Source of the DNA: Paenibacillus sp. Root52
Lineage (GTDB): Bacteria; Bacillota; Bacilli; Paenibacillales; Paenibacillaceae
NCBI RefSeq assembly: GCF_001426865.1
Contig: NZ_LMFO01000003.1
Location: 723 to 64,722, forward strand
Length of the DNA stretch: 64,000 nt
Direction of reading: 5' to 3'
In this document: in pieces, positions 40,449-50,975 of the stretch
Position numbering within the stretch: position 1 is the stretch's first letter
Layout of the letters: every line of letters begins with the position of its first letter
The notes under the pieces: model-generated
What the model was told of the DNA's origin: nothing
The model's input: only the letters and a program-made list of their open reading frames with translations
The model's database searches: none
Made by a program: the position numbers and the translations under genes

Positions 40449-40637
40449 TTGGCAAAAACCAAAAGAGGACGCGTGCTGTGGAGTCTTCCATCCAGAGGAC
40501 GCGGAACATGTCCGGTATGCGGCAGTACACGTATCAAATTGTTGTATTCCCAAACCAAAACAGACGGCACGATGTTGAAAGTATGCAAGAAATGTTCAAA
40601 AGCAGTGCAGTCCAGAGTGGATCAGGTAACTGTATAA
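40449..40637 (+). CDS. Small zinc-ribbon protein
   Basis: A 62-residue basic protein with two CxxC knuckles (CPVCGSTRIKLLY at about residue 20 and CKKCSKAVQ at about 46), enough to bind one zinc ion; the basic N terminus (AKTKRGRVLW) suits RNA or DNA contact. The TTG at 40449 has AAGAGG about ten bases upstream. An upstream extension to 40206 in the same frame would run through the ArsR terminator and looks unlike a protein. Function unknown. It precedes the WYL regulator by 115 bases. Confidence 0.65.
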   Translation: MAKTKRGRVLWSLPSRGRGTCPVCGSTRIKLLYSQTKTDGTMLKVCKKCSKAVQSRVDQVTV

Positions 40638-40752
40638 CGCAGCGCAGCCTGTTCAATCGAACAGGCTCTGTTGGTGTACCAGACAGGATAGGAATTCAGC
40701 AGAATGCTTTTATAATAGAAGGAGTGAGCTTAAGCGAAAAGGAGGTGGGAAG

Positions 40753-41673
40753 ATGAGCAATATGCATCGTATTCACTGGTTTGACGAGCAGATTCGGAGT
40801 GGGCGTTTTCCTAATAGTGGCTGGCTCGCACGAGAATTCGAAATCTCGCGTCGACAAGCGCAGCGGGATATTGAATATATGGCAATCTCCCTACGTGCTC
40901 CTTTATTATACATGGCGAAGTACCGTGGATATTGTTATGAGGATCAGACTTACCGTCTGCCCCATTTATATATGACAGAGGAAGAGCAGCAGGTGTTGAA
41001 ATATCTGGCACATCGCTATCGGCATTACGATTATGAGCAGGCAGAGTCGGTGAAACGTGTCGCGCATCTACTTGAGCGTTTTACGTTGGAGGAACATCCT
41101 ACAGAGCAAAGGAAACTTCCCGTATTTACAGCACAACCGAAACAACTGCAATGGTATGAATTGTTGACCCACGCCATAGCTGATTCGTGCCGAGTGCACA
41201 TTCATTATAGGGATCATAGCGGAGAAAGGCAGCTCTCCCTATGTCCTCTCAAGTTGATCTCACAGTTTAACGCCGATTATGTTATTGGTTATGAAACCGA
41301 TCCTGTACAGCAAATGACCATTCGGTTGGAAGGCATCATTTATATGTCAGTCTCGGAGGAGAGGTTTGAATACAAGGCTGATGCTCTGCTCAGTGGGTGG
41401 GAAGAGCCATTGCCCGTTCGTAAACCGTTCGTAGCGGAGATTCGTTTGAAGGAAGGACAACATTTTGAATTATGGCATGGATATCCGATTCGGGATCGGC
41501 AGGATCAAATTTATTTTATTGAATTTCATGATATGGATGCGTTCCTCCAGCATTTGTTTCGTAGCGAGTGGGAGGAACTATTGTCGCCAGGTTGGCTGAG
41601 GAGAAAGCTTCAGCAACGTGCAGAGCAATTATTGGATAGATTAACGGTTCAGCGGGAAGCAAATGTGGAATAG
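40753..41673 (+). CDS. WYL-domain transcriptional regulator
   Basis: A 306-residue protein. The N terminus (about 1-60) is an HTH with LAREFEISRRQAQRDIEYM, as in DeoR-like WYL proteins. The middle (about 130-210) matches the WYL ligand-binding Sm-like fold, with HIHYRDHSGERQLSLCPLKLISQFNADYVIGYE; the family WYL triad is degenerate here (DYV). A C-terminal WCX-like region follows. WYL proteins sense nucleotides or single-stranded DNA in some bacteria. The ATG follows a perfect AAGGAGGTG. The two unfamiliar paralogs start 24 bases downstream, so it is the first gene of a probable three-gene operon. Confidence 0.85.
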   Translation: MSNMHRIHWFDEQIRSGRFPNSGWLAREFEISRRQAQRDIEYMAISLRAPLLYMAKYRGYCYEDQTYRLPHLYMTEEEQQVLKYLAHRYRHYDYEQAESVKRVAHLLERFTLEEHPTEQRKLPVFTAQPKQLQWYELLTHAIADSCRVHIHYRDHSGERQLSLCPLKLISQFNADYVIGYETDPVQQMTIRLEGIIYMSVSEERFEYKADALLSGWEEPLPVRKPFVAEIRLKEGQHFELWHGYPIRDRQDQIYFIEFHDMDAFLQHLFRSEWEELLSPGWLRRKLQQRAEQLLDRLTVQREANVE

Positions 41674-41697
41674 ACAGCGTAGAAAGGAGGTCGTGTC

Positions 41698-42696
41698 TTG
41701 GCTGAAGTCATGTTAGATCACTTCATGATGAAACGGGAATCCAAATCGTATGTGGATGGCCTGCATGCCATATTGACCCATACGGGTCAGTTTCAAGGCT
41801 CCAAATATATGCTCGCTGGATACACAGGTATGGCTTTTAAACTAGCAGTGCATCAGCAGTTACTTCCCATGTCAGTTACAGCCTACGGACAGTGGGGAGA
41901 AGCGCATCGGCCCGGCATTGATAACCTGGGTATCTTCACCATCTGGGATGGTGGACGTACACGACATTCTACGTTCAGTTATTACCAACAGGATGCTGTG
42001 AATTGGGTGAAACGTAGTCTAGATGAGGGTAGAGGCGTAATTTACTGGATTCCTGAATTCGGTGTCATTCACGGTTATGATGACGATGACCGAATCTTCT
42101 ATGTGCAGGATGGGTGGAGTGAGGAATCCCAGATACTACTGTATGACAATTTTGGGCTGAACTTCACAGGCTTCTGGTATTGTCAGATATTCGGAGACCA
42201 AGTCCACATGGCAGAACAGGAGATGGTATTGGAGTCCTTACGACTAGCGATAGAGGATTGGGATACTCCTTATCGTCTGTTGCCTGATCGTAATATTGCT
42301 TCTGGCAAGCTGGCTTATGAGGTGTGGGTGCGGGCACTGCAACGTACAGATTATGATGCTTCAGGAGCAGCTTATATTTTGGACGCCTATTGTCAGTCAC
42401 GAACTGAGATTCAGAAGTATTTACACGTTGTACGAGGGTTATGGAACGAACTGAACCAGGCTCACACATGTTATGAACAGATTGGAGTATTGATCCACGA
42501 GATGCAAACATGCATCGTTCAGCAAGAGGGCAGACGGATTCTACGCCAAGACACAACCGAGAAGCTGGCACACGTATTGTTGAAGGCGAAGGCGCTGGAG
42601 GTGCAAGCCATGGATTATTTTCGAATAATCTCCTTCCGATACCCTGACCGTAAACGCTCTACAGTACCAAGATGGGGAGCACATTCAGCCAGATAG
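41698..42696 (+). CDS. Unknown protein with C39/BtrH-like fold, first of a tandem pair
   Basis: A 332-residue soluble protein without signal peptide. Residues about 15-165 resemble BtrH-N/C39 papain-like domains: SYVDGLHAILTHTG where the enzymes have a His-Cys helix, AGYTGMAFKLA, and VIHGYDDDDRIFYVQDGW where they have the catalytic His and a following Asp. The nucleophile Cys is not there. The C-terminal part (about 185-315) is helical. The next gene is a paralog. The start is TTG with AAAGGAGG directly upstream. Fold assignment is my inference from pattern; no function can be named. A BLAST annotation would probably read hypothetical protein. Confidence 0.65.
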   Translation: MAEVMLDHFMMKRESKSYVDGLHAILTHTGQFQGSKYMLAGYTGMAFKLAVHQQLLPMSVTAYGQWGEAHRPGIDNLGIFTIWDGGRTRHSTFSYYQQDAVNWVKRSLDEGRGVIYWIPEFGVIHGYDDDDRIFYVQDGWSEESQILLYDNFGLNFTGFWYCQIFGDQVHMAEQEMVLESLRLAIEDWDTPYRLLPDRNIASGKLAYEVWVRALQRTDYDASGAAYILDAYCQSRTEIQKYLHVVRGLWNELNQAHTCYEQIGVLIHEMQTCIVQQEGRRILRQDTTEKLAHVLLKAKALEVQAMDYFRIISFRYPDRKRSTVPRWGAHSAR

Positions 42697-42712
42697 GAGG
42701 GAAGTGGGAGTG

Positions 42713-43732
42713 ATGAAATCAAAATTCATGTTAAGCGACTTGATAGCGCCTGTACCGTATCAGCATATATCAGATGATCAGAGACGACGACGGGTCAACA
42801 GCTCGTATTCGGATGTATTGTATCGGATTCTGAAGCATCAACGATGGGGTGATTTCACTCAGGACATGATTGCGGGAATGACAGTCAGTGGTTTTCGATT
42901 GGTGGTTGATCGGCGTCTAACCGCAGAGTCGATCTCGGCATACAATTGGATGGCAGAGAATTTTGTAGCGGCTGACTTCATTGGTGTAACGGCGAGCCAG
43001 GCGGCAGGTTTTTCATTTGAACCCACCTTTCCGCTGTATCAGAAGCAGGCGTTGCATGATATCAAGGCCAGTATTAACCGCGGCGTGGGAGCGATTCTGT
43101 GGCATAATCAATTTGTCATTGCTGCTGGGTATGATGATACCGAGCAACTGATCTACCTTTGTGATTGTGAGGGACAGGAGCTGCAGCCCCTACCTTATCA
43201 TTCTTTTGGAAAAAATGAATCCCCTTACTGGTATTATCAAGTACTGGAGTCTCATCAATCGGTGGATGTATGGGAAGTCTGCAAGGAATCGTTAATCCAG
43301 GCCGTCTACAAATGGGAAACTCATGACTACATGTTGCCGCCCCAAGAGTATGCCTGCGGAGCAGAAGCCTATACGACCATTGCTGCAGCGCTACAGTCAG
43401 GAACGTATGACACGGTTGAGGCGGCAATCGTCCTACGCTATTATGCAAAATCTAGACAGGATATCGCCTCGTATGTGGCAGCACTGGAGCATCTGTCCAT
43501 ACATATGGATCGGGTTATAAGCGAATACGCCTTACTCGCAGAGCATTATACCGACATCGTTGAGGTGATCAATGACTACTCCGCATGGGATGCAAGGGAA
43601 CCGCAAAGTGTACAAAAGGTGATTGAGCAGATTCAAAGGGCAGGGGATAGAGAGCAACAGGCTATAAATGCTATTAAAAATGCTTTCCCTGAAACGATTG
43701 GTAATCGTTTTGCAGATATTGGTTTGAGATAA
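42713..43732 (+). CDS. Unknown protein, paralog of the preceding gene
   Basis: About 339 residues, co-linear with its neighbour: SSYSDVLYRILKH, AGMTVSGFRLVVDRRL, then IKASINRGVGAILWHNQFVIAAGYDDTEQLIYLCD, and the helical tail ACGAEAYTTIAAALQ..TYDTVEAAIVLRYYAKSRQDI. The shared spacing shows tandem duplication followed by strong divergence. It too lacks the catalytic Cys, and the His before GYDD is replaced by Ala. The ATG at 42713 follows GGGAAGTGGGAG; a GTG at 42704 would add three residues. The gap from the previous stop is 16 bases. A terminator follows, ending the operon. Confidence 0.65.
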   Translation: MKSKFMLSDLIAPVPYQHISDDQRRRRVNSSYSDVLYRILKHQRWGDFTQDMIAGMTVSGFRLVVDRRLTAESISAYNWMAENFVAADFIGVTASQAAGFSFEPTFPLYQKQALHDIKASINRGVGAILWHNQFVIAAGYDDTEQLIYLCDCEGQELQPLPYHSFGKNESPYWYYQVLESHQSVDVWEVCKESLIQAVYKWETHDYMLPPQEYACGAEAYTTIAAALQSGTYDTVEAAIVLRYYAKSRQDIASYVAALEHLSIHMDRVISEYALLAEHYTDIVEVINDYSAWDAREPQSVQKVIEQIQRAGDREQQAINAIKNAFPETIGNRFADIGLR

Positions 43733-44556: not shown

Positions 44557-46257
44557 GTGACTATAACAATTAGTGCAGCCATTGAAGAGATGGTTGCAGA
44601 GATTCATATATGGTTTGATGAACAGGCGAAACGCACAGATCTGGACAGCATTGTGCAACGAACCACGTTGCAGAGGGGAATTTTCAATGATATTTTGCTA
44701 GATTACAGACCTGGGCGAACAACGGTAGATAGTGCCGATCTGGATTTGGATGATAGTTTTACATCGAAGAATGCAGGCTTCCTCACACTGGAAGAGGTAC
44801 GAACGGTGATTCAACCGCAGCTTGTGGAGGTGGTTAAAGGCAAGTTGGAGCAATGGGCACATACACCGTTGATTGATTATCATTTTACCTTTCGCGCGAA
44901 ATTCCCAACCACCGAAGGCAAGCTGCACCTAACATTGCTGGATTATGTCCATGAAGAGAAGAGACAGCAATTACTTGAACGTGTTCATTCCTATGTAGAC
45001 GAGAAGGTGGAGAATGGTACATATCCCACGAAGCCACTAGAATCGTTTTTCTTGACACGTCATCTTCTTGACGTGAACCTGTTTCCTGAATTGGATGTAG
45101 CGCGAACGATAGCGATCTTTAATCGGATTCAGGAGTTGAATAAGAGCCGTCCGGAGGCACTCGCAGAGCATCGTAGGAATTTGATCCATGCTCTAACCGA
45201 TTGGGCTGAGAATCAATTTTTGCCCCAGTATTATGATATTCAAACATCTACCTACCGTGCGAATGAGTATACGCTCAAGCCAGGTGCAGTACTAGAGCAG
45301 CGGGAGACCCAGCATCTGGATGAAAATGAGAACCAAGAACAGCTCGCGCAACCGATTGATCTGTTATTGTACGGAGCGGTCATGATCCTTCGCTATGAAC
45401 CGAGCTACAGTAAACCTAGAGGTCTCAACTTCATGGAGCTTGCCGTGCAACTGGGCAGTAAACGAGCAGTACGTATGATGGATGAGGGTAGTGGAACCTT
45501 TGCCAAGGAAGAAATCATTGTGAAAAATAAACAGGTCGAGTGCAAAGCAAACGATGTATACTCGCTCATCACCATCCACATACGCCAGGAAGAAGCCTCT
45601 GCCTATGAACAAGCTCTTACCTTTATTATTCACTTACTGGAACGGGGATTTCCGAAACATTATAAAATCAAATTGAAATCTAGTGATAAGCAATATTTAC
45701 CGATCAAAGGGCTGGCCAAGTCCGATACCCATCGTTTCTTCGCTAATGCACTGCAATATGCAGAACTGCATTCGCTTCTTGAGCAATATGCCCGTAAGGC
45801 GATTGAACAATTCGAATTTTATGCAGATACAGAAGGGGAAAAGAACTGTATGACGGGCAGCTACGCAACTTTTGGACTGGGACTCACAGATGAGCAGTAT
45901 TTTCCATTAGTAGTTCACTACATGAATCATGTGGATGATGAGCATCAGCTAGTGCAGGATAAGTTCATCACTGTGTTTGCCGAGAAATATGGTGTTACCA
46001 CCCACTCTGCACCTATATTAGTTCATTGTCTGCGCCGTGCTACAGATAGTTTGAAGCTGAAAACTCTGCCTGAGCTGGAAAGTGAGGACAAGCTTGCTCT
46101 GCTTGCACAGCAGATGAATGGCCTACAGCCTTACGAGGTTGAGCATGTGCTATATCCAATCTGGGGCAAGGTCGAGAAATTAGCCACGCTGGCTCGTAAG
46201 GCGGATGGAAGACGTAAAGAGTTACTGCTTGAACTGTTGCAGGCTGCTGGGAAATAA
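44557..46257 (+). CDS. Large uncharacterised protein (possibly DUF6138-like)
   Basis: A 566-residue soluble protein with no signal peptide or membrane segment. I do not recognise any catalytic motif. The N-terminal half is helical with LDYHFTFRAKFPT-type beta strands; the centre has AQPIDLLLYGAVMILRYEPSYSKPRGLNFMELAVQLGSKRAVRMMDEGSGTF, an ankyrin-like phrase (LAVQLGSKRAVRMMDEG); the end is a helical bundle (KLATLARKADGRRKELLLELL). From memory it recalls the family labelled DUF6138, which I cannot verify. GTG start after AGGAG. It is followed 33 bases later by the FGE-like gene, so the two are probably one operon. Confidence 0.6.
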   Translation: MTITISAAIEEMVAEIHIWFDEQAKRTDLDSIVQRTTLQRGIFNDILLDYRPGRTTVDSADLDLDDSFTSKNAGFLTLEEVRTVIQPQLVEVVKGKLEQWAHTPLIDYHFTFRAKFPTTEGKLHLTLLDYVHEEKRQQLLERVHSYVDEKVENGTYPTKPLESFFLTRHLLDVNLFPELDVARTIAIFNRIQELNKSRPEALAEHRRNLIHALTDWAENQFLPQYYDIQTSTYRANEYTLKPGAVLEQRETQHLDENENQEQLAQPIDLLLYGAVMILRYEPSYSKPRGLNFMELAVQLGSKRAVRMMDEGSGTFAKEEIIVKNKQVECKANDVYSLITIHIRQEEASAYEQALTFIIHLLERGFPKHYKIKLKSSDKQYLPIKGLAKSDTHRFFANALQYAELHSLLEQYARKAIEQFEFYADTEGEKNCMTGSYATFGLGLTDEQYFPLVVHYMNHVDDEHQLVQDKFITVFAEKYGVTTHSAPILVHCLRRATDSLKLKTLPELESEDKLALLAQQMNGLQPYEVEHVLYPIWGKVEKLATLARKADGRRKELLLELLQAAGK

Positions 46258-50096: not shown

Positions 50097-50975
50097 ATGG
50101 ATCTGAAAACTATAGCGTCACATTATACCTTGGGGGAGATTCTGAATTGTACATCGATGCAGCAAGGGACAAGTTCAGCAGCGATGTTGCTGGAGACCAC
50201 GTTAGATAGGTTTGTATTGCGTCAGCTCAGGGATGAAGGACAGGCTTTGGCTGAATATGAAGTATACGAGGCACTGGCACCTGCAAATATATCACCAAGT
50301 ATCCTGTGTACGAAGGAAGGTCTGCCTTATATTACCCTTGGGCATATGATTTATAATGTTCAGACTTATATTGAAAAAGTAGTGCCGCAGCACTCGCTAA
50401 GCTTGAATTATGTTGAGTTGGGTAAAGTGATTGCACGTTTCCATCAACGCATCTTGCAGCTGGATATGACTAGACTTGGTCAGAAGGATCGTTTTGCTCT
50501 ACCTTCATTATGGGAAGCCGTAAGTGGGGATATTCTGAATTCGTCATCTGAGGTAATACGGCGTTTGGCAAGTCATGTGGAGGAATGTTGCAAGTATCAA
50601 TCGAAGCATACGGCTGTAATACATGGGGATCTAGGGCTGTGGAATGTGCTATTCACGGAAAGTCATATGTATATCATTGATGTCGGTGAAGTACGGTGTG
50701 GGAACCATCATTTTGATCTAGCAGCCATACTGTCTTCGACGTGTTCTTCTTCAACAACAGTATGCGAGCTGGAGGAGCGAATGATTCAATTGGAACGTGG
50801 ATATCGCTCTGAAGGGCGCGACGTTAATCGGGAGATTCTATACGAACAGATCCATCTATGGGTCATTCGTGGACTGTTAGCCATCATAAGAGAGAAGGGA
50901 ATCATTGCTCCAACGATCCCCTATATCGAGCGGAATCTAGCGTTTCTCGGTAAATGTCAGACGGTAATGAGCTGA
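50097..50975 (+). CDS. APH-family phosphotransferase (kinase-like)
   Basis: A 292-residue protein with the aminoglycoside-phosphotransferase / choline-kinase fold. The Brenner catalytic loop reads VIHGDLGLWNVLF (His-Gly-Asp...Asn) and the metal-binding Asp is in YIIDVGEVRCGNHHFDLA. The N-terminal lobe has FVLRQLRDEGQALAEYEVYEAL, with Arg in place of the usual Lys before the helix. The substrate is not predictable: sugars, small alcohols or drugs. AAGGAGGGGG lies before the ATG. Monocistronic. Confidence 0.82.
   Translation: MDLKTIASHYTLGEILNCTSMQQGTSSAAMLLETTLDRFVLRQLRDEGQALAEYEVYEALAPANISPSILCTKEGLPYITLGHMIYNVQTYIEKVVPQHSLSLNYVELGKVIARFHQRILQLDMTRLGQKDRFALPSLWEAVSGDILNSSSEVIRRLASHVEECCKYQSKHTAVIHGDLGLWNVLFTESHMYIIDVGEVRCGNHHFDLAAILSSTCSSSTTVCELEERMIQLERGYRSEGRDVNREILYEQIHLWVIRGLLAIIREKGIIAPTIPYIERNLAFLGKCQTVMS

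Follow-up and report, generated by a model that had tools for sequence, protein, structure and literature searches.

A WYL-domain regulator encoded with two paralogous proteins of predicted acyltransferase-type fold that lack the catalytic Cys-His pair: a probable split transcription regulator in Paenibacillaceae

We analysed a stretch of 64,000 nucleotides (nt) of Paenibacillus sp. Root52 (NZ_LMFO01000003.1, positions 723 to 64,722, forward strand), referred to below as the window, and in it a group of three genes: a WYL-domain regulator (P0001) and the genes for two further proteins, A (P0002) and B (P0003). Positions are listed in Table 1; compared loci and genomes carry L and G numbers. 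A preliminary description of this DNA had reported a WYL regulator followed within 24 bases by two diverged paralogs, and three open reading frames (ORFs) indeed lie there, all on the same strand, with gaps of 24 bases between WYL and A and of 7 bases between A and B. A GGAGG-type ribosome-binding site, as judged by eye, stands ahead of all three starts, and B has a second possible start, an ATG at 42713. The three genes form a compact operon. A TATAAT box, part of its probable promoter, also precedes WYL in 15 of the 19 relatives compared.

Table 1. Genes, active-site codons and upstream elements of the three-gene locus, in positions of the window (aa, amino acids)
Feature	Position	Strand	Basis and remarks
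P0001, WYL-domain transcription regulator, 306 aa	40753..41673	+	Pfam WYL; start ATG
Protein A (P0002), 332 aa, predicted BtrH/CtaG/CcbD-type two-domain fold	41698..42696	+	AlphaFold2 model, fold matches; start TTG
Protein B (P0003), 342 aa, paralog of A, same predicted fold	42704..43732	+	AlphaFold2 model, fold matches; start GTG
Codon of A Ser17, nucleophile Cys site	41746..41748	+	Aligned with Cys17 of L187
Codon of A Glu120, catalytic His site	42055..42057	+	Precedes GYDD motif in alignment A1
Codon of A Asp138, third triad site	42109..42111	+	Asp in 19/24 A-position representatives
Inverted repeat, 9 bp perfect, 4-base loop	40646..40667	+	Sequence and upstream regions of relatives, by eye
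TATAAT, -10-like element, probable WYL-A-B promoter	40711..40716	+	Sequence and relatives

A and B align over 264 aa with 32% identity (E 2e-37). Neither has a Pfam match above cut-off, and BtrH_N (PF14399) was absent from both at E up to 1; in NCBIfam, A had no match and B had two, both far sub-threshold. The proteins were modelled with AlphaFold2 from alignments A2 (38 rows) and A3 (33 rows), which held window and named-locus sequences only; A2 leaves out two A genes that are frameshifted (L051, L055) and two B genes (L045, L052). The predicted local distance difference test score (pLDDT) was 83.3 for A and 86.7 for B, and the predicted template modelling score (pTM) was 0.85 for each. The top Foldseek match of both models was a chain of the AziU2-U3 complex (E 1.5e-6 for A, 5.7e-7 for B). 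With VIA-align, A and B reached Z scores of 17.3 and 17.8 to 8gs1_D of that complex, 16.4 and 16.9 to CtaG, and 15.7 and 17.0 to CcbD, over 258-285 residues and with root-mean-square deviations (rmsd) of 3.8-5.6, Z differences below 1 being ties. The papain half of A taken alone matched phytochelatin synthase (Z 12.7), 3erv, which is a C39-like peptidase (Z 11.5), and, at Z about 11, the peptidase domain of PCAT1, and B matched phytochelatin synthase at Z 9.8. Profile A1 also matched the BtrH-type protein of L187, which carries full BtrH_N and DUF4872 Pfam matches (hhalign probability 95, E 3e-8), with Ser17 of A on Cys17 of L187; a PDB sequence search with the A1 profile and L187 gave no meaningful match. 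The papain/C39/BtrH-type fold suggested in the preliminary description is thus supported by both predicted structures and by the match to L187, and A and B are predicted to share the two-domain fold of BtrH, CcbD and CtaG with its papain-like core.

The catalytic Cys and His of this fold are replaced in both proteins. The triad sites hold Ser17, Glu120 and Asp138 in A and Ser, Gln and Asp in B, and a GYDD motif follows the site of the catalytic His in each, as had been noted before. From 198 domain rows we removed 16 shorter than 220 aa to leave 182, and then 64 with at least 90% identity, to leave 118 representatives for alignment. At the nucleophile site, 82 of the 118 have Ser, 19 have Thr, 9 a gap and 8 another residue; at the His site, 83 have Glu, 16 Gln, 6 Arg and 13 others; and at the third site 83 have Asp. 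The loss of the nucleophile Cys, originally described for the two window proteins, was found throughout the sample, with Cys in 0 of 118 and His likewise in 0 of 118. Orthologs with an intact Cys-His pair were looked for and none was found among the 118 representatives; the intact pair occurs only in more distant BtrH proteins, such as L187. At the A position, the first domain gene after WYL, all 24 representatives have Ser and Glu and 19 have Asp, a class that includes L198, whose domain falls outside the A clade. At the B position, the second domain gene, Ser or Thr is present in 25 of 30, and the His site is mixed (Q 15, E 4, R 4, A 3, G 2, P 1, K 1). Among the 34 representatives fused to sigma factors, described below, 28 have Ser or Thr, 29 Glu and 27 Asp. 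Because Cys and His are absent from 118 representatives and other residues prevail, we regard the domain as a constrained non-cysteine family rather than as two decayed enzymes. The alignment indicates that the sampled family has lost the Cys-His pair and fixed other residues, with B diverged further. The Ser at the nucleophile site may act as a helix cap.

We then considered how widely the three genes occur together. The window's A shows up to 96% protein identity in named Paenibacillus genomes, and the order WYL-A-B was kept in all 20 named Paenibacillus loci, with A frameshifted in two (L051, L055). The trio was also found in other genera of the Paenibacillaceae, and in L053, L054, L056 and L057 it was kept at 41-57% identity with no other window gene alongside. 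A neighbourhood survey covered 55 distinct A genes whose flanks reach 1.1 kb or more, seven A places with less being passed over; 53 of them are immediately preceded by WYL and immediately followed by B, which supports the pairing with a WYL regulator first described in the window. The A1 domain profile had matches in 146 of 295 family genomes and in 15 of 19 genera. The ratio of nonsynonymous to synonymous substitution rates (dN/dS), taken against four relatives, was about 0.05-0.14 for A and 0.12-0.16 for B, with dS above 1 in three of the four. It was far under 1 for all three genes, which are thus under purifying selection; together with the conservation of the trio, this places the locus far beyond chance. 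A degraded remnant of A/B genes was seen in a congener (G022; L063, 5238-5936). A mobile-element origin was considered and dropped, as a search of 50,697 phage records gave no match to B, and A had a single match among plasmid records, to a 2.7-Mb Paenibacillus replicon.

P0001 passes the Pfam cut-off for WYL (PF13280) with 27.4 bits against 21.8. No Pfam helix-turn-helix was matched in it at E up to 1, and HTH_11 matches in its relatives were weak and sub-threshold (16.3 bits in L127, 13.8 bits in L192); its N-terminus is putatively DNA-binding. At L192, from another class of Bacillota, a single protein of 642 aa consists of a WYL domain (60.5 bits) followed by one copy of the A/B domain. Of 295 family genomes, 86 matched a profile of the trio WYL (E up to 1e-40), and 85 of these 86 also have a domain match, compared with 146 of 295 overall, a co-occurrence in the genome and not an adjacency. 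The sole genome without a domain match (G293) has a broken copy, and 6 of the 86, with a best WYL match weaker than 1e-80, may represent another subfamily. Outside the family, weak matches of E 1e-31 to 1e-36 came from eight genomes of the phylum; three of these matches were inspected (L226, L228, L232) and are WYL proteins with no domain adjoining, and in a fourth, G615, the WYL gene (L198) lies beside a domain. In a WYL tree the trio WYL proteins, the WYL part of L192 and the WYL gene of L198 form one clade (100/99), which excludes all 8 tested of the 11 other WYL matches in the window's genome. By this phylogeny the WYL subfamily of P0001 is one that accompanies the A/B domain.

The survey also went beyond the preliminary description, in that the domain is a recurrent partner of extracytoplasmic function (ECF)-type sigma factors and is also fused to an AraC regulator. 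A weaker third set of matches in the genus was the C-terminal half of sigma-70 family factors (L059, L060, L062, L064), which we take to be ECF-type because regions 2 and 4 alone were detected. By a profile of our own, 34 of the 118 representatives are sigma fusions. When 18 fusion proteins were run against Pfam, 17 passed at least one sigma-70 cut-off and 15 passed those of both region 2 and region 4; L060 and L155 have region 2 only, and L140 passes neither, with weak region 4 matches. The sigma factor is a separate adjoining gene in L132, L133, L134 and L183. This fusion of sigma-70 regions 2 and 4 is absent from the window operon and present in paralogs elsewhere. An AraC helix-turn-helix is fused to the domain in L208 (domain E 2.7e-10), and in L195 an AraC-GyrI gene lies just 5' of the domain gene. 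Altogether 99 of the 118 representatives are fused to, beside, or in a gene run with a WYL or sigma gene, a count inflated by the way in which members were found.

Further arrangements were observed among these relatives. Three-part proteins in L138 (4041-6602) and L139 (3861-6371) consist of an ECF-type sigma factor, the dead BtrH-type domain and a glyoxalase/vicinal oxygen chelate (VOC) domain. Genes for solute-binding proteins (SBP_bac_1) lie directly beside sigma-fused copies (L135, 12459-13598; L142, 5630-6772; L145, 3621-4727); by eye their products have no signal peptide and could possibly be intracellular ligand binders. The glyoxalase/VOC and solute-binding neighbours of sigma-linked relatives were picked by eye, and 10 of 10 picks were confirmed. 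In L133 (6578-8368) and L141 (3394-5220) a concanavalin-like LamG domain is fused to the dead domain, and no regulator domain was found in the protein. A protein with a YCYANSA-like motif stands beside sigma fusions in L059 (6484-7497), L060 (6626-7600), L064 (2608-3579) and L065 (2196-3146) and is probably an intact cysteine enzyme; those of L059 and L064 have weak, sub-threshold BtrH_N or C39 matches, and the A1 profile run against the intact-Cys neighbour in L060 gave a probability of 0.1, with no kinship to A/B found. Stand-alone copies of the domain occur in a similar gene order in two genomes (L184, 4626-5633; L185, 4714-5727).

A tree of the domain itself was built from 89 of the 182 rows with a quick method, supports from the Shimodaira-Hasegawa-like approximate likelihood ratio test (SH-aLRT) only and a midpoint root. 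The L192 domain is sister to A and B together (SH-aLRT 100). The A proteins, except for the early trio A of L100, form one clade (100) and the B proteins another (99). Another clade (99) is formed by 43 domains, nearly all sigma-linked ones; two sigma-fused rows, the second copy of L135 and L145, fall outside it. On the simplest story, one WYL-domain pair or fusion would have given rise to three genes in the Paenibacillaceae by duplication, and if the fusion came first, splitting would be part of the origin of the trio.

Among known systems, BtrH (PF14399 BtrH_N + PF16169 DUF4872), the butirosin acyltransferase, has the same layout of a papain-like and a helical half, and its GYDD-like motif and Asp are kept in A and B. 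In contrast to BtrH, A and B have other residues in place of Cys and His, and they are linked to a regulator, with no aminoglycoside cluster. The Cys-His catalytic pair of C39 and papain-like cysteine peptidases is missing in both. CtaG and CcbD, which belong to closthioamide and celesticetin biosynthesis, respectively, match A and B over the full length of the fold (Z 15.7-17.0, rmsd 3.8-4.8, 258-271 residues); the variants CtaG C11A, H128A and D144N and CcbD C19S are named in PDB titles, and neither Cys nor His is found at the matching motif places of A and B. The top Foldseek match, AziU2-U3 of Streptomyces sahachiroi (chains 7wuw_C and 8gs1_B/D), is by its title a complex of two proteins, the output not specifying which subunit the matched chain is. 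Its chemistry is aziridine formation, which is not known to need a Cys-His pair. A and B share only 8-13% identity with it, and no regulator link was seen there.

On the side of the regulators, relatives of A and B form C-terminal extensions of the kind known from ECF sigma factors, whereas A and B of the window are proteins in their own right, with WYL as their partner. In known ECF groups the extension senses or regulates, according to the parts of a survey used here, which name SnoaL, TPR, WD40, Cys-rich and carbohydrate-binding extensions, hold no mention of a papain/BtrH type, and count 15 of 26 ECF groups with extensions as still unstudied (PMC8999054). P0001 shares its WYL domain with PafBC-like regulators, and its N-terminus would bind DNA. 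For WYL proteins, HTH-WYL-WCX architectures, PafBC fusions and helicase fusions have been described (excerpts of PMC6789036), as have fusions to nucleases, helicases and others in a text whose searched portion has 0 occurrences of 'papain' and 'peptidase' (PMC4012209). Likewise, the consulted portion of a papain-fold census contains no such regulator partner, and 'sigma factor' has 0 occurrences in its text (PMC10318531). Among the papers listed in searches of the open-licence literature, subscription papers being outside its scope, none dealt with ECF, WYL or AraC regulators that carry a BtrH/C39-type domain, and this putative family of sensory domains is apparently undescribed.

Taken together, these findings lead us to consider it probable that WYL, A and B are a split transcription regulator in which A and B serve as signal-sensing or co-regulator subunits. 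This proposal builds on the operon, its conservation under purifying selection, the predicted fold, the loss of Cys-His and the WYL-domain fusion elsewhere. P0001 would be the DNA-binding subunit. A and B would represent a catalytically dead form of the BtrH/CtaG/CcbD acyltransferase fold, in which the old cleft, if open, has been kept as a polar binding pocket, lined by Ser-Glu-Asp in A and by a diverged version in B. They would act as sensing subunits in contact with WYL, probably paired with each other, and a small molecule, peptide or acyl/peptidyl group bound in the cleft would alter the action of WYL on the promoters of its target genes. Since a look-alike domain is built into unrelated regulators of related bacteria, it is probably a little-known sensor part. 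Enzymes of the BtrH/CtaG/CcbD fold act on groups held by carrier proteins, and structures of CcbD with a peptidyl carrier protein (CcbD-PCP) are named in PDB titles; these carrier-bound substrates, together with the VOC and solute-binding neighbours of the sigma-linked relatives, make a natural product or a carrier-bound group a reasonable guess for the ligand. A further proposal, which we hold to be quite unlikely, is that a large family of dead carrier-protein acyltransferase folds senses acyl- or peptidyl-carrier intermediates, or the natural products made from them, on behalf of WYL, ECF and AraC regulators, the WYL version having been split and duplicated into an A-B heteromer. If so, the state of a nonribosomal or acyl-carrier assembly line would feed directly into transcription.

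Several observations weigh against the split regulator. The domain of L198 stands beside a WYL gene and falls outside the A/B clade, so that this WYL pairing does not come from the same descent. L192 is the only WYL fusion found and comes from a draft genome. The neighbourhood sample is biased, in that its profile drew on A, B and sigma-fused members and most of the 55 A genes belong to the window's own genus. An internal deletion in G015 has left only residues 1-79 and 265-306 of WYL, with A and B intact, and G842 has a related domain without WYL or B, on a 5.8-kb contig. The L184 domain lies near a gene for a pyridoxal phosphate (PLP)-decarboxylase and a weak match to ketoacyl synthase III (KAS III; 21.5 bits, cut-off 26.6), a neighbourhood that would suit an enzymatic role, and the strictly kept Ser and Glu in A could stand for new catalysis instead of binding. 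A and B might accordingly be active enzymes that need no Cys-His pair and make or modify a small molecule, with WYL controlling or sensing the product. Such enzymes would fit the AziU2-U3 complex chain as the closest Foldseek match of both models, the Ser and Glu invariant in 24 of 24 A-position representatives, with Asp mostly kept, and the PLP-decarboxylase gene near the domain of L184. They are harder to reconcile with a domain fused to three unrelated regulator types, with a B that has no fixed residue at the His site, and with the trio itself, beside which no biosynthetic gene set was seen in the window or at the listed loci. We think active enzymes unlikely, and leave them an appreciable share because of G015, the context of L184 and the invariant Ser and Glu of A.

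The retention of A and B in G015 without an intact WYL could also mean that they are ordinary proteins with some metabolic role, simply under WYL control, and that the trio is a target operon and not one regulator. Regulators commonly control adjoining genes. The WYL-domain fusion of L192, with matching phylogenies of both parts, and the sigma and AraC fusions, which place the domain inside regulators, argue against a target operon, and we judge it distinctly improbable. The deletion in G015 (L013, about 2525-2827) offers a natural strain for comparing how far A/B depend on WYL. The preliminary description had further stated that WYL regulators are often tied to defence, and, in the portions drawn on here, two studies place WYL regulators at defence loci (PMC4012209, PMC9122601). 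No such link was found at this locus. PADLOC gave no match for A or B, and P0001 hit two WYL models and, weakly, Cas3c (15.5 bits); the neighbours, judged by Pfam scan only, are of ordinary chromosomal types, B has no match in the phage records, and the gene order is conserved family-wide. That A and B are effectors of an anti-phage or toxin-antitoxin locus under WYL control is therefore very hard to credit.

That regulators carry fused sensor domains is known; new here would be a dead acyltransferase fold common to WYL, ECF-type sigma and AraC regulators. To our knowledge, few WYL signals are known. If the split-regulator reading is right, the ligand of one module would explain many orphan regulators in the Paenibacillaceae and other Bacillota, bacteria that make many peptide antibiotics, and the trio would show how duplication can turn a single regulator, fused or paired, into a three-gene system.

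Upstream of the trio, a 62-aa zinc-ribbon-like ORF with two CxxC motifs lies at 40449-40637; a relative of it was matched in 10 of the 20 named loci (at the ORF length used) and is present in L162 and L163. Between this ORF and WYL stand a hairpin and the TATAAT box. The inverted repeat of this hairpin was tried as a WYL operator and dropped, as most of the 19 relatives have a hairpin there with other letters; since these hairpins of differing letters come after the zinc-ribbon gene in the relatives, we read the element, by eye, as terminator-like. Pfam matches of the window neighbours include AraC, Rrf2, SnoaL, MFS, ArsR-like HTH, DUF6138, APH and copper-amine-oxidase-N. The DUF6138 protein (655 bits) is encoded 3' of the trio at 44557-46257 and is followed by an unassigned 349-aa ORF, and the same pair lies 3' of the trio in L039, L049, L050 and L052. 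A few genes 3' of the trio, at 50097-50975, is a gene for an APH phosphotransferase-type protein (PF01636, 54 bits).

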